Assembly (NCBI RefSeq): GCF_024138395.1
Contig: NZ_JAMYDU010000005.1
Coordinates: 248,001 to 312,000 of the forward strand
DNA length: 64,000 bases
From: Pseudomonas mandelii
GTDB taxonomy: Bacteria; Pseudomonadota; Gammaproteobacteria; Pseudomonadales; Pseudomonadaceae
Direction of reading: 5' to 3'
The notes under the pieces were generated by a model. That model searched no databases, had not been told where the DNA came from, and worked only from the letters and a program-made list of their open reading frames with translations. The first letter of the stretch is position 1; each line of letters opens with the position of its first letter. The position numbers and the translations under genes were made by a program. Shown piece after piece: positions 25,540 through 29,555 of this stretch.

Positions 25540-25616
25540 CGGGGTATAGCGCAGTCCGGTAGCGCGCCTGCTTTGGGAGCAGGATGTCAGGAGTTCGAAT
25601 CCCCTTACCCCGACCA
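25540..25616 (+). tRNA. tRNA-Pro (anticodon TGG), copy 1
   Basis: The 77-base gene has acceptor CGGGGTA/TACCCCG, anticodon stem CCTGC/GCAGG around TTTGGGA (TGG), T-loop GTTCGAATC and an encoded CCA. An identical copy lies at 25793-25869. Confidence 0.97.
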
Positions 25617-25697: not shown

Positions 25698-25760
25698 TTT
25701 TTGAAACCAGTTAGCGCTGGAATCGAATCTTAAGATCAGAGGCCAAAAGCGCTGATCGAA

Positions 25761-25790
25761 GAAGGCGCCTTTCAGAGGTGCCTTTTTTTT
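25761..25790 (+). terminator. Terminator after tRNA-Lys
   Basis: AAGGCGCCT pairs with AGGTGCCTT across a five-base loop and is followed by eight T. It separates the Asn-Pro-Lys unit from the second tRNA-Pro, which begins two bases after the T run, so expression of that copy would need readthrough or its own promoter. Confidence 0.8.
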
Positions 25791-25792
25791 AC

Positions 25793-25869
25793 CGGGGTAT
25801 AGCGCAGTCCGGTAGCGCGCCTGCTTTGGGAGCAGGATGTCAGGAGTTCGAATCCCCTTACCCCGACCA
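25793..25869 (+). tRNA. tRNA-Pro (anticodon TGG), copy 2
   Basis: All 77 bases equal copy 1 at 25540-25616, and even the base before and the sequence CCGGGG at its start match. It lies immediately after a T-rich terminator. No clear promoter is seen in the short gap, so the copy is probably expressed by readthrough. Confidence 0.96.
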
Positions 25870-25873
25870 TATT

Positions 25874-25910
25874 AAAAATCCTCGTATCGAAAGATACGGG
25901 GATTTTTTTT
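25874..25910 (+). terminator. Terminator after tRNA-Pro copy 2
   Basis: AAAAATCCTCGTATC pairs with GATACGGGGATTTTT across a GAAA loop and is followed by further T. It ends the tRNA cluster. Confidence 0.85.
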
Positions 25911-25925
25911 GCCTGCTGTAAATGC

Positions 25926-25961
25926 AAAAAAGCCCCGCTTCTCGATGGAGAAGCGGGGCTT
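25926..25961 (-). terminator. Terminator of the EGKCG/EF-hand gene
   Basis: Read on the minus strand, AAGCCCCGCTTCTC pairs with GAGAAGCGGGGCTT across a four-base loop and is followed by a T run. It starts 15 bases past the stop codon at 25976. It is a strong 14-base-pair stem. Confidence 0.88.
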
Positions 25962-25975
25962 GGGCCTTCAGAGGC

Positions 25976-26392
25976 TTAGCTATTGTCTTTCAGGTGCTCG
26001 AACAAGCCCTTCGGCATTTTTTTGCCGTTGGTTTCATAGTTGGCTTTCACGTTATCAAAAGCCTCTTGTTCGTCGATCTGGCCGTCATGGTTGGTGTCGA
26101 TCTTGTCGAAGTCAGCCTTGGGTGCCACTTTCAAAAATTCCGCGCGGGATACCTTGCCGTCATCATCGGTGTCGGTCTTGGCCATCGATGCATCGCCGCA
26201 CTTGCCTTCGCCACATTTACCTTCGCCACATTTGCCTTCAGGCGTCTTCACGACCTGTTCCGCCGAAGCCAGCAGGTAGCCTTGAGTCAGCGGCTGCGAA
26301 GCGAAGACAGAACCGGACAACATCATGCCTCCGGCCAGGACAGCGCCGAGCAGGCCAACGGTGTTTTTGCTGAGAGTAGTGGTACGGGACAT
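25976..26392 (-). CDS. Secreted EGKCG-repeat, EF-hand protein (HvfA-like RiPP metallophore precursor candidate)
   Basis: The 138-residue product has a signal peptide (residues 1-31, ending SVFA-S). A short GYLLASAEQ segment leads to three tandem EGKCG units at residues 52-66, the motif modified to oxazolone/thioamide by MNIO (DUF692) enzymes in HvfA-type precursors. Two canonical EF-hand loops follow: D74-E85 (DTDDDGKVSRAE) and D99-E110 (DTNHDGQIDEQE). I chose the ATG at 26392 because it begins the signal peptide. No DUF692 enzyme, partner protein (HvfC-like) or DoxX gene is adjacent, so modification would have to come from elsewhere. A plain secreted calcium- or copper-binding protein is the alternative. 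Confidence 0.8.
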   Translation of the reverse strand: MSRTTTLSKNTVGLLGAVLAGGMMLSGSVFASQPLTQGYLLASAEQVVKTPEGKCGEGKCGEGKCGDASMAKTDTDDDGKVSRAEFLKVAPKADFDKIDTNHDGQIDEQEAFDNVKANYETNGKKMPKGLFEHLKDNS

Positions 26393-26608
26393 TACAAATC
26401 TCCTGGGTTGCACGACACAACCGGTCGATAAAGGACGCCACATGAGCGCGGCGATGACCGAAGCAGGCGGTGCCTTGCTCGGGTGTGGCCATTTAGCGGG
26501 CGTGGTGTATCGCTACTGTGTCGTGCAAGGAGGGCTTTGTAAGCGAAGGGATGGAATCGGCGGGGCAGATACAGTGAGACACAGAAGTGTTCGCAGGTTG
26601 GACCGAGG

Positions 26609-26712
26609 CGCCTGCATCGCGGGCAAGCCACGCTCCCACAGGATATGTGTCGACCATGGAATCTGGATCCGACACATATCCTGTGGGAGCGAGGCTTGCC
26701 CGCGAAGAGGCC
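26609..26712. repeat. REPIN with extended perfect inner stem
   Basis: Outer REP units (GGGCAAGC and its complement) are continued inwards by 20 perfectly paired bases (CTCCCACAGGATATGTGTCG). It occupies most of the lower part of the 339-base gap between the EF-hand gene and ndh. The upper part of that gap holds a small GGTTG/CAACC inverted repeat (26405-26421) near the EF-hand gene start and nothing else I can name. Confidence 0.85.
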
Positions 26713-26731
26713 CTAAGCAACGCCGAAAATC

Positions 26732-28030
26732 TTAATGCAGCTTCAGCCGCGGCTCAGTCCCGCGCCCAATCTTGCTACCCAACATCAACATCGCCGTGCG
26801 GAACGCGCCATACAACGCCATCTGGTGCATGCGATACAACGACACGTAAAACATCCGCGCCAGCCAGCCCTCAAGCATCACGCTACCGGTGAGGTTACCC
26901 ATCAAGTTGCCCACAGCCGAAAAACGCGACAGCGAGATCAGCGAACCGTAATCGGTGTACTTGTATTCCGGCAGGGTCTTGCCTTCGATCCGCAGTTTCA
27001 GCGATTTGGCCAGCAACGAAGCTTGCTGGTGCGCGGCCTGGGCGCGCGGCGGCACATTGCGGTCGGTGCCCGGTTGTGGGCAGGCCGCGCAGTCACCGAA
27101 GGCGAAGATGTTCTCGTCGCGGGTGGTTTGCAGGGTCGGCAACACTTGCAGCTGATGGATGCGGTTGGTTTCCAGGCCATCGATGTCCTTGAGGAAACCC
27201 GGCGCACGAATCCCGGCGGCCCAGACTTTGAGGCTGGCGTTGATCACTTTGCCATCGGCGGTGATCAGACTGTCTGCCGTCACTTCGCTGACCGCGGCAT
27301 TGGTCATCACGTTGACCCCGAGTTTCTCCAGGGTTTTATGCACAGGCCCGCCGATTCGTTCCGGCAGGGCAGGGAGCACCCGTGGTCCGGCTTCGATCAG
27401 GGTGATGTGCATGTTTTCCGGTTTGATTCGGTCCAGGCCGTAGGCCGCGAGTTCATGGGCGGCGTTGTGCAGTTCCGCTGCCAGTTCGACCCCGGTGGCA
27501 CCGGCGCCGACGATCGCTACGCTGATCTGCTCGACTTTATCGGTTTGCCCGGCGTGGGCGCGCAGGTAGTGATTGAGCAACTGCTGATGGAAGCGCTCGG
27601 CCTGTTTGCGGGTGTCGAGGAACAGGCAATGCTGCGCTGCGCCCTGCGTGCCGAAATCGTTGGTGGTGCTGCCGACAGCAATCACCAGCGAGTCGTAAGG
27701 CACTTCGCGCGCCGGCACCAGTTCCAGACCGGCCTCGTCGTAGGTGGCGGCCAGCTGGATTCTCTTCTGTGCGCGATCGAGCCCGCTCATGCGCCCCAGC
27801 TGGAACTCGAAATGGTTCCATTTCGCCTGAGCGACATAGTTGAGTTCGTCTACGGTGGAGTTCAGAGAACCTGCCGCCACTTCGTGCAACAACGGTTTCC
27901 AGATGTGGGTCAGGTTCGCGTCGACCAGCATCACACTGGCCGTGCCGCGCTTGCCCAGAGTCTTACCCAGACGGGTAGCCAACTCCAGACCGCCGGCGCC
28001 GCCGCCAACGATGACAATACGATGAGTCAT
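26732..28030 (-). CDS. ndh: Type II NADH dehydrogenase
   Basis: This 432-residue peripheral membrane flavoprotein passes electrons from NADH to quinone without proton pumping. The FAD site is IVIVGGGAGGLELATRLG at the N-terminus. The NADH site is VAIVGAGATGVELAAELH near residue 170. FAFGDCAACPQP near residue 300 and a hydrophobic or amphipathic C-terminal region are typical. I chose the ATG at 28030, where the FAD motif begins. It is the last gene of a minus-strand block with DUF3094, MOSC and DUF1780 genes, an order conserved in pseudomonads. Confidence 0.95.
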   Translation of the reverse strand: MTHRIVIVGGGAGGLELATRLGKTLGKRGTASVMLVDANLTHIWKPLLHEVAAGSLNSTVDELNYVAQAKWNHFEFQLGRMSGLDRAQKRIQLAATYDEAGLELVPAREVPYDSLVIAVGSTTNDFGTQGAAQHCLFLDTRKQAERFHQQLLNHYLRAHAGQTDKVEQISVAIVGAGATGVELAAELHNAAHELAAYGLDRIKPENMHITLIEAGPRVLPALPERIGGPVHKTLEKLGVNVMTNAAVSEVTADSLITADGKVINASLKVWAAGIRAPGFLKDIDGLETNRIHQLQVLPTLQTTRDENIFAFGDCAACPQPGTDRNVPPRAQAAHQQASLLAKSLKLRIEGKTLPEYKYTDYGSLISLSRFSAVGNLMGNLTGSVMLEGWLARMFYVSLYRMHQMALYGAFRTAMLMLGSKIGRGTEPRLKLH

Positions 28031-28090
28031 GGGGATATCTCGCAAGGCTAAAAGAAATCGGTGCAATTACCCGAGCGAGCGCGATGCAGC

Positions 28091-28264
28091 TCATAGCGTC
28101 AGGTAACTGATAAAGCGGCTCAACAGGCCTAAACCAATGGTCACTGCCAACACCACCACCAGGAGCATCCACGGCCGGAAAGGCCGGCGCTCGACTTGGT
28201 GCTGGGAAAGGCGCAGGTACTCTTCGACATGCTTCTGGTCGTCCGGGTTCAGGCGGCTGGTCAT
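28091..28264 (-). CDS. DUF3094 family small membrane protein
   Basis: Translating the minus strand from the ATG at 28264 gives 57 residues beginning MTSRLNPDDQKHVEEYL, then a hydrophilic linker with ERRPFRPW. One membrane segment (MLLVVVLAVTIGLGLLS) and a short tail follow before TGA. It matches the DUF3094 family seen next to ndh in Pseudomonas; the function is unknown. It is 60 bases upstream of ndh and 51 bases downstream of the MOSC gene. Confidence 0.85.
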   Translation of the reverse strand: MTSRLNPDDQKHVEEYLRLSQHQVERRPFRPWMLLVVVLAVTIGLGLLSRFISYLTL

Positions 28265-28315: not shown

Positions 28316-28843
28316 TTATCCTGGGTTGAACGGAGCATAGCCGCTGTCCGGAATCGGCTCGACATTCACCCTGTCGTTCAGGCGAATGATGCCACTTTGT
28401 AACACTCGGGCAGTGATTCCGCCATGTCCGCGAACGGCCTGAAAGGTCCCGGGGCCGAGGTTGTTTTCGAGACGTGCGCAGGGCTGGCACCAGCCGGTGG
28501 TTTCGAAAATCGCCTGGCCGATCCTGAAACGCCGGCCCTTGAGGCTGAACAGGTTGATACCGCTGACGACGATATTGCGCCGCAGATCCTGAGGCCGTAC
28601 GGGCTGATCGTCCGAACGGTCCATCAGGGAATTGATTACAGCCAGGTGTTCCCACTGAATCAAAGTCACCTGCCGCGCATTGCGCACACCGGGACGGGCA
28701 TGATCACCGGTCAACCCGGCTTCAAGTCGTGCTTCTACAGCATCGAGTTCGATCATCGGCGAGTGGGATTGCGGCCGTACACCGATCCAGCGGACACGGC
28801 CTTGTTGCGGTACTTCGGCGATCAGTTCCTGCAACGGACTCAC
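28316..28843 (-). CDS. MOSC domain-containing protein
   Basis: This 175-residue protein has the MOSC fold found in molybdenum-cofactor sulfurases and YiiM-type enzymes. GLTGDHARPG lies near the N-terminus, and RRNIVVSGINLFSLKGRRFRIG plus the metal-binding cysteine stretch TGWCQPCARLE near residue 116 follow. There is no PLP domain, so the substrate is unknown. Its ATG overlaps the stop of the DUF1780 gene (ATGA), so the two are coupled. Confidence 0.9.
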   Translation of the reverse strand: MSPLQELIAEVPQQGRVRWIGVRPQSHSPMIELDAVEARLEAGLTGDHARPGVRNARQVTLIQWEHLAVINSLMDRSDDQPVRPQDLRRNIVVSGINLFSLKGRRFRIGQAIFETTGWCQPCARLENNLGPGTFQAVRGHGGITARVLQSGIIRLNDRVNVEPIPDSGYAPFNPG

Positions 28844-29466
28844 AGGCTGATCCCAACGTCGAAAACGATGCTGCGGCCCAGATTGCTACGCAGAAAATCC
28901 GGAGCCTCCGGATGGGCGAACAGCACTCGGGCGAAGGTTGGACCGACCAGCGACAACGAGCGCCAGCCCTGACGCAAATACTCGGTGGGTGGCGGAAAGT
29001 GGCTGTTGAGGTCCAGCACTTCGCGCTTGAGACTGGCGAAAGCGATGATGTCCAGCTCCCCCAGGTCCATGCCGCGCTCTTGGTAGTTATGGGCTTTTTT
29101 GCGCAAGGTCGGCGCCAGTCTCAGCAGAAATTCATTGGCCGGGATGCGCCGGGGCTTGGCCTCGCGGCGCACCAGCTGGCTCAGGGAAAACGCGCTGCGT
29201 CGACGTTGCAACTCATCACGCCATTCATCGTTGAGGCGCCGGCCCTCGTCGAGCACAAAAAACACTTCGAAGTTTGCGTCGCGGAACAACACGTCGGGCG
29301 GCTCCCCGGCAGGGGCAAACTCGTCGGCGCGATAGGGAATGTTCAGGCCCTGCAGCAGGCGCTGGCAAACCCAACGCTCACGCTCCCATTTGCGGGCATT
29401 GGAGAGGAACGTGTTGGCTTGCTCGGCCGCAATGGTCAGCAGGCGTAAATAATCTGAATCATCCAT
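28840..29466 (-). CDS. DUF1780 family protein
   Basis: This 208-residue soluble protein begins MDDSDYLRLLTIAAEQANTFLSNARKWERERWVCQRLL. Tracts such as PPDVLFRDANFEVFFVLDEGRRLNDEWR (residues ~60-90) follow. It matches the Pseudomonas DUF1780 family; the acidic core looks nuclease-like but I see no decisive catalytic motif. I chose the ATG at 29466 as the start of the conserved part; the frame stays open upstream to 29553. It is translationally coupled to the MOSC gene. Confidence 0.85.
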   Translation of the reverse strand: MDDSDYLRLLTIAAEQANTFLSNARKWERERWVCQRLLQGLNIPYRADEFAPAGEPPDVLFRDANFEVFFVLDEGRRLNDEWRDELQRRRSAFSLSQLVRREAKPRRIPANEFLLRLAPTLRKKAHNYQERGMDLGELDIIAFASLKREVLDLNSHFPPPTEYLRQGWRSLSLVGPTFARVLFAHPEAPDFLRSNLGRSIVFDVGISL

Positions 29467-29555
29467 AGGCCCAAGCTTAGCGTTCAAATGTGATCTGAAT
29501 AATAAGTCTGTCGTGATTTCTTCAGACAGAGTCTTACCCGTTTTTTCTGGCATGC

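Follow-up and report, generated by a model that had tools for sequence, protein, structure and literature searches.

An EGKCG/EF-hand Protein of Pseudomonas mandelii and Its Probable, Unlinked HvfB–HvfC Enzyme Pair

The window, meaning the whole 64-kb stretch of DNA analyzed here, encodes a small protein that combines tandem EGKCG units with two EF-hands. By its sequence it is an EfhP-type protein and so belongs to a known family, of which it is an unlinked representative, and the HvfB–HvfC pair encoded on another contig of the same genome probably represents its enzymes. We consider it rather likely that the product is a calcium-binding periplasmic protein whose cysteines are converted in trans by HvfBC to 5-thiooxazoles, and which would bind both copper and calcium. 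The new elements include the location of an unlinked hvfB–hvfC pair lacking an adjacent precursor gene and the identification of a second, likewise unlinked EGKCG/EF-hand paralog.

Sequence features of the window protein

The open reading frame starts with an ATG at position 26392, preceded at a distance of 7 bases by AGGAG, and its stop codon ends at 25976 on the minus strand (Table 1). Its N-terminus displays a hydrophobic stretch followed by VFA and then S, read by eye as a putative export signal. The three EGKCG units occupy residues 52-66, account for all three cysteines of the protein, and are the sole EGKCG matches in the six reading frames of the window. When the mature sequence was shuffled 200,000 times, at least one EGKCG arose in 63 cases and two arose in none. 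The protein passes the HvfA motif model NF050137 (25.3 bits, cut-off 19.5) and fails the full-length HvfA equivalog model NF050188 (20.2 bits, cut-off 95). Four Pfam EF-hand models score over their cut-offs (PF13202, whose match covers two stretches, PF13499, PF00036, and PF13405), and PF13833 falls below. The preliminary description of a signal peptide, three EGKCG units, and two complete EF-hand loops within 138 residues is thus borne out by the open reading frame and the motifs, with the signal assigned by eye.

Table 1 Features of the window gene and its surroundings (window coordinates)
Feature	Position	Strand	Basis
EGKCG/EF-hand protein, 138 aa	25976..26392	-	ORF, NF050137 and Pfam EF-hand models
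Putative signal peptide, residues 1-31, candidate cleavage VFA/S	26300..26392	-	Sequence reading
LTQGY (LxQGY motif), shortly after putative cleavage site	26276..26290	-	62/62 orthologs
EGKCG unit 1	26225..26239	-	Motif search
EGKCG unit 2	26210..26224	-	Motif search
EGKCG unit 3	26195..26209	-	Motif search
EF-hand loop 1, residues 74-85 (DTDDDGKVSRAE)	26138..26173	-	Pfam models and sequence
EF-hand loop 2, residues 99-110 (DTNHDGQIDEQE)	26063..26098	-	Pfam models and sequence
Intrinsic terminator, 14-pair stem and T tail	25930..25961	-	Terminator scan
Upstream region, blocks conserved among 61 orthologs	26393..26580	-	Ortholog alignment
ndh-like pyridine nucleotide-disulphide oxidoreductase, upstream neighbor	26732..28066	-	Profile match
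DUF3094 neighbor, upstream	28091..28264	-	Profile match
DUF1780 neighbor, upstream	28840..29553	-	Profile match

Other family assignments were considered and rejected. The protein has no DUF2282 match in a Pfam search at E up to 1 and just three cysteines, which sets it apart from bufferins (DUF2282 or 6/12-Cys types); the lanmodulin equivalog model NF053806 gives 23.4 bits against a cut-off of 135, and the XopAW model scores below its cut-off. Two PDB matches, 8fns and 6mi5 (lanmodulin), span residues 62-111. The AlphaFold model is poor overall (mean pLDDT 52.5), with ten-residue means of 63-77 over residues 71-120.

Enzymes and a second EGKCG protein in the same genome

The genome assembly (6.3 Mb, 80 contigs, completeness 100) contains two MNIO genes, located on contigs C1 and C24, and the window lies on C45. 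As noted from the letters alone, no DUF692 enzyme is adjacent, and the genome search places none anywhere within the 64-kb window. The same search excludes a genome-wide absence of DUF692 genes, which had been named, together with unmodified cysteines, as an outcome that would speak against a modified precursor: one of the two MNIOs exceeds the HvfB cut-off and has an HvfC partner. HvfB is encoded at C1:519703-520485 (NF003818, 423 bits, cut-off 360) and HvfC next to it at C1:518949-519668 (NF050145, 258, cut-off 142). The approximately 4 kb flanking hvfB in each direction contain no EGKCG open reading frame. This 8.8-kb stretch (L123) holds a divergent methyltransferase gene and, as read from sequence, a putative two-component system. 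The window gene on C45 and hvfBC on C1 consequently depart from the HvfA-type arrangement, in which the precursor gene adjoins the MNIO gene. The MNIO on C24 passes the BufB cut-off and adjoins a DUF2282 precursor, constituting a bufferin cluster; the genes downstream of bufB match two models only weakly, HvfC with 52.8 bits (cut-off 142) and HvfX with 44.6 (cut-off 80).

A genome-wide search for further EGKCG proteins, as the preliminary description had proposed, found one besides the window protein (NF050137, E up to 1): a paralog of 152 residues at C1:476914-477372 (L004 1489-1947), with four EGKCG units arranged in two pairs and EF-hand matches over cut-off. It is likewise unlinked, about 42 kb from hvfBC. 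Pseudomonas sp. PICF141 (L269) encodes an unlinked protein similar to this four-unit paralog.

Orthologs and conservation

Close orthologs of the window gene, defined by a protein similarity of more than 220 bits, were found in 63 of 398 sampled Pseudomonas genomes, 60 of which also encode HvfB over the cut-off. In the scan of named genomes, the nearest ortholog belongs to Pseudomonas sp. PICF141 (96%), and close orthologs occur, among others, in P. mandelii, P. mucoides, P. frederiksbergensis, P. migulae, and P. fluorescens 28B5. The conservation analysis covered the 62 orthologs readable as protein (56 distinct; G259 was left out), and alignment A1 excludes L295. Each of the 62 contains two or three EGKCG units, and since two aligned units are invariant in 62/62, the motif is not a product of chance. 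Within matching units, from which the codon counts were taken (invariance being read from the alignment), codons vary synonymously, with Cys encoded by TGT 66 and TGC 62 times and Lys by AAA 94 and AAG 34 times.

The LxQGY motif follows just past the putative cleavage site in all 62 orthologs, and the longer string QPLxQGY is invariant across them. A relaxed pattern, [LM]x[QSHN]GY, is present in 56/65 distinct linked EF-hand precursors, 16/20 linked short precursors, 20/21 other unlinked EF-hand proteins, and 0/2 unlinked short ones. For four of the linked EF-hand misses (L299, L311, L315, and L317), the position examined lay behind EF-hand sequence rather than at the N-terminus; in the remaining five, an LxQGY-like motif is absent or variant. 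LxQGY is a possible HvfBC recognition element. It need not be the recognition site, because a single-alanine scan of FonA identified no strictly required pre-core residue (PMC12668002) and 9/65 and 4/20 of the linked precursors have no match.

Separation of the gene from its putative enzymes extends across these genomes. Sixty-one hvfB loci were examined, namely those of the 60 genomes and of G046, in which the ortholog runs over two reading frames; seven of the stretches are shortened by contig ends. An EGKCG gene stands beside hvfB in just three (G053, G136, and G364), hvfC is present in all 61, and the methyltransferase neighbor in 54. In these three genomes (L158, L165, and L156, respectively), the precursors adjoining hvfB are short and EF-hand-less, and the unlinked EF-hand protein is also present; one enzyme pair may possibly serve two substrates there.

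In 25 genomes a search at E up to 0.1 detected no EGKCG protein other than the ortholog; 24 of these are listed as 100% complete, G259 being 73% complete, and G305 has two matches that both fall in one protein. Barring an unrecognized substrate, HvfBC would act in trans in these genomes. The paralog in the P. mandelii genome raises an alternative, namely that HvfBC modifies only this four-unit protein, itself unlinked and about 42 kb away, the window gene being a former precursor now in decay. We regard this as very unlikely: across the 62 orthologs two EGKCG units and QPLxQGY do not vary, codons within the units change synonymously, and the 24 complete genomes yielded no other EGKCG protein.

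Co-distribution of HvfB and EGKCG proteins across the genus

In the genus sample of 398 Pseudomonas genomes, HvfB was scored by its curated cut-off and EGKCG by NF050137 at E up to 0.01. HvfB exceeds the cut-off in 173 genomes, and the EGKCG motif is found in 178 genomes, a count that includes matches near the threshold (e.g., G387 at 0.0093), and in 0/14 control genomes. EGKCG proteins are present in 173/173 genomes with HvfB and in 5/225 of the others; these are raw genome counts, which shared ancestry inflates. An earlier count by protein similarity gave 167/173, having missed six divergent precursors and counted G356, in which the motif search detects no EGKCG; it is superseded by the motif-model count. 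MNIO matches occur, yet always short of the HvfB cut-off, in 157 genomes; since just five of these are EGKCG-positive, the association concerns HvfB and not MNIOs in general.

The five EGKCG-positive genomes without HvfB over the cut-off are G352, G350, G219, G269, and G011. G352 is 78% complete, with hvfC present and only the end of hvfB on the contig, and in G350 the hvfB–hvfC junction is apparently missing. In G219 (L321), the first approximately 44 residues of hvfB run into hvfC, most of which is left, with the usual methyltransferase gene beside it. Neither HvfB nor HvfC exceeds its cut-off in G269 or in G011, which has kept its EGKCG protein. In both G219 and G269, an ortholog of 98% identity persists although hvfB is not intact, which counts against modification in trans, as does the EGKCG protein of G011. 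The loss of hvfB in G219 with the ortholog kept provides a natural loss for comparison.

The orthologs in G219 and G269 speak for a second explanation, in which the protein senses Ca2+ without being modified, its EGKCG cysteines act as free thiols that sense metal or redox state, and HvfBC serves other substrates. Work on the P. aeruginosa homolog EfhP is in line with it, as the protein produced in E. coli without its signal peptide binds Ca2+ with a Kd of 13.7 uM (PMC9132961) and its authors propose iron sensing by its cysteines (PMC11559002). The 173/173 co-occurrence argues against it, as does the lack, in the 24 complete genomes, of any other EGKCG substrate found for the retained hvfBC; the HvfB-like enzymes beside linked relatives (below) point the same way. 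On balance, an unmodified sensor seems unlikely to us, if by no means far-fetched.

Linked relatives and phylogeny of HvfB

From the named-genome scan, the best 80 of 211 relatives were taken as loci, and MNIOs were labeled HvfB or BufB, here and in the tree, by the better BLAST score to the two enzymes of the P. mandelii genome itself. Among these best 80 of 211, an MNIO lies in the examined flank of 51, and by this label all 51 are nearer to HvfB than to BufB. An HvfC match accompanies 50 of the 51, the exception (L307) ending inside the MNIO gene. Of the 29 loci with no MNIO in the flank, 14 are close orthologs of the window gene. In L267 and L283, the order is hvfB–hvfC–precursor, the EGKCG/EF-hand gene standing downstream rather than upstream.

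The absence of any BufB-like MNIO from the examined flanks of these best 80 of 211 EGKCG loci also bears on the possibility that the bufferin enzymes, and not HvfBC, modify the cysteines. Such a pair exists in the genome, in the C24 cluster with its DUF2282 precursor, its BufB over cut-off, and the weak HvfC- and HvfX-model matches, and MNIO matches that fall short of the HvfB cut-off are still present in G219 and G269. The flank result and the EGKCG motif in only 5/157 genomes with sub-cut-off MNIOs nevertheless render it highly improbable. The bufferin-1 (DUF2282) product is also an MNIO-made RiPP; its precursor family and MNIO clade differ from those of the window system, the bufferin MNIO falling in a different clade from HvfB in the tree.

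The HvfB tree comprises 142 rows and was built by a quick method with midpoint rooting, after rows of fewer than 230 residues and weak or identical rows had been dropped. The window genome's HvfB falls in a clade of 77 rows with an SH-aLRT of 100, containing 68 unlinked enzymes, 6 linked to an EGKCG/EF-hand gene, and 3 linked to a short precursor, where the label "unlinked" for loci L061-L096 is based on flanks no longer than about 1.5 kb. The fewest changes that account for the unlinked state on this tree number two. With unlinked and EGKCG/EF-hand-linked enzymes grouped in one clade, the simplest reading is that the enzyme lineage was once linked to an EGKCG/EF-hand gene and separated from it later.

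Proposed mechanism

In the favored reading of modification in trans, the gene product would be a RiPP precursor of the EfhP or HvfA–EF-hand type that is exported and binds Ca2+. Before export, HvfB–HvfC (contig C1, about 519-520 kb) would bind the N-terminal region, comprising the signal peptide and LxQGY, and would oxidize the three EGKCG cysteines to 5-thiooxazoles, with a predicted change of about -4 Da each and -12 Da in total; for the mature window protein, the calculated mass is 11582.6 without and 11570.5 with the modification. Sec would then carry the modified protein into the periplasm, where the modified segment may bind copper and the EF-hand pair calcium. Buffering or sensing of copper, or of a different soft metal, could in this way depend on calcium.

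Biochemical work on related enzymes provides the background. The cysteine product is now assigned as 5-thiooxazole, revising oxazolone/thioamide (PMC12668002, PMC13419390), and the oxazolone/thioamide chemistry initially suggested for the window protein is revised with it. FonBC modifies a two-unit peptide and not a single-unit one (PMC12668002), and HvfBC prefers the full-length precursor, with poor activity in the absence of the signal peptide (PMC13419390); both observations favor the proposed mechanism. The window system also ties EfhP, a studied calcium sensor, to a copper-binding modification that EfhP produced in the absence of its signal peptide and of HvfBC is not expected to carry.

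A broader version, which we offer as a tentative possibility, holds that Pseudomonas EfhP-type EF-hand proteins are generally RiPPs modified by HvfBC in trans, acting as dual sensors in which calcium gates copper or iron binding by 5-thiooxazoles. If true, the EfhP binding work on E. coli-made protein lacking the signal peptide (PMC9132961) examined the unmodified form.

Relation to known systems

EfhP (PA4107) of P. aeruginosa, studied since 2014, is predicted to be periplasmic and has two EF-hands (PMC4053335); its four EGKCG units were noted in 2024 (PMC11559002). The fusion of EGKCG repeats to EF-hands, at first taken for a possible new kind, was therefore already represented by this homolog. 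The phenotypes described for EfhP in the text cited from PMC11559002, PMC9132961, and PMC4053335 relate to calcium, to iron, and to virulence; copper does not figure among them, which counts against the proposed mechanism. EfhP resembles the window protein in its EGKCG repeats and two EF-hands. It has four units, whereas window-type orthologs have two or three, and the window genome encodes two such proteins. Moreover, efhP has been suggested to form an operon with PA4106 (DUF692) and PA4105 (DUF2063) (PMC4053335), in contrast to the window gene, whose putative enzyme pair is unlinked.

A 2025 survey names the fusion type 'Buf_EGKCG|EF-hand_5' as MNIO substrates and mentions EfhP (PMC12452194). 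Like the window protein, this type has a short EGKCG segment lacking 17-residue repeats and two C-terminal EF-hands. The survey also notes stand-alone precursor genes, whose products may be modified by enzymes encoded at a different locus or may stay unmodified. Of the preliminary interpretation, the unlinked HvfA-type segment joined to EF-hands stands; its status as a new variant does not, as both fusions and stand-alone precursors appear in that survey. We found no statement there on the unlinked hvfBC pairing or on the present conserved Pseudomonas locus, and literature searches on EGKCG, on MNIOs with EF-hands in Pseudomonas, on EfhP as an MNIO substrate or RiPP, and on stand-alone MNIO precursors yielded no paper that reports the pairing. 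The question raised by the survey becomes a clean test here, since in 24 complete genomes one EGKCG protein was found and the HvfB gene has no precursor beside it.

HvfA/oxazolin and fontiphorin (HvfABC and FonABC) share with the window system the EGKCG units, HvfB- and HvfC-type enzymes, and, for HvfA, a Sec signal. They differ in being encoded in one operon, and EF-hands go unmentioned in the text cited from PMC13419390 and PMC12668002. The word EGKCG also appears in PMC12636315 and PMC12538549.

Flanking regions of the window gene

Upstream of the window gene lie genes for an ndh-like oxidoreductase, DUF3094, and DUF1780 (Table 1). A Group III homolog in P. fluorescens Pf0-1 was described in 2014 beside DUF1780 and DUF3094 and without DUF692 or DUF2063 (PMC4053335); the shared DUF3094 and DUF1780 neighbors suggest that the present locus is of that type, and we infer that the Pf0-1 homolog is the same ortholog. 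The ndh-like gene was detected adjoining the ortholog in 59/63 loci and is not part of the system.

The strong terminator remarked on in the preliminary description is real and belongs to the window gene's own 3' end, because its stem is on the gene's own strand directly past the stop codon. The conserved upstream blocks probably represent a promoter and leader. No sigma-70-like site was found in a scan of 25700-26760. The window leader by itself folds strongly (-55 kcal/mol, a single-sequence value without a shuffle control), and the consensus fold of 58 distinct leaders from orthologs is weak, at -3.4 with a covariance term of 0.16; with almost no covariation and so weak a consensus, a structured RNA leader is not claimed. 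The leader contains a perfect 12-nt inverted repeat with arms at 26408-26419 and 26517-26528, one arm lying just 5' of the ribosome-binding site. Between the window gene and ndh, at 26617-26705, there is a further inverted repeat of 36 nt, 97% complementary, which we take to resemble a REP pair.

Four tRNA genes lie beyond the window gene's terminator. As tRNA genes are present in the examined flank of just 23/63 ortholog loci, they were rejected as a constant neighbor; two loci have ten tRNA genes. In the window, two tRNA-Pro(TGG) genes of equal length, at 25540-25616 and 25793-25869, enclose a tRNA-Lys gene.
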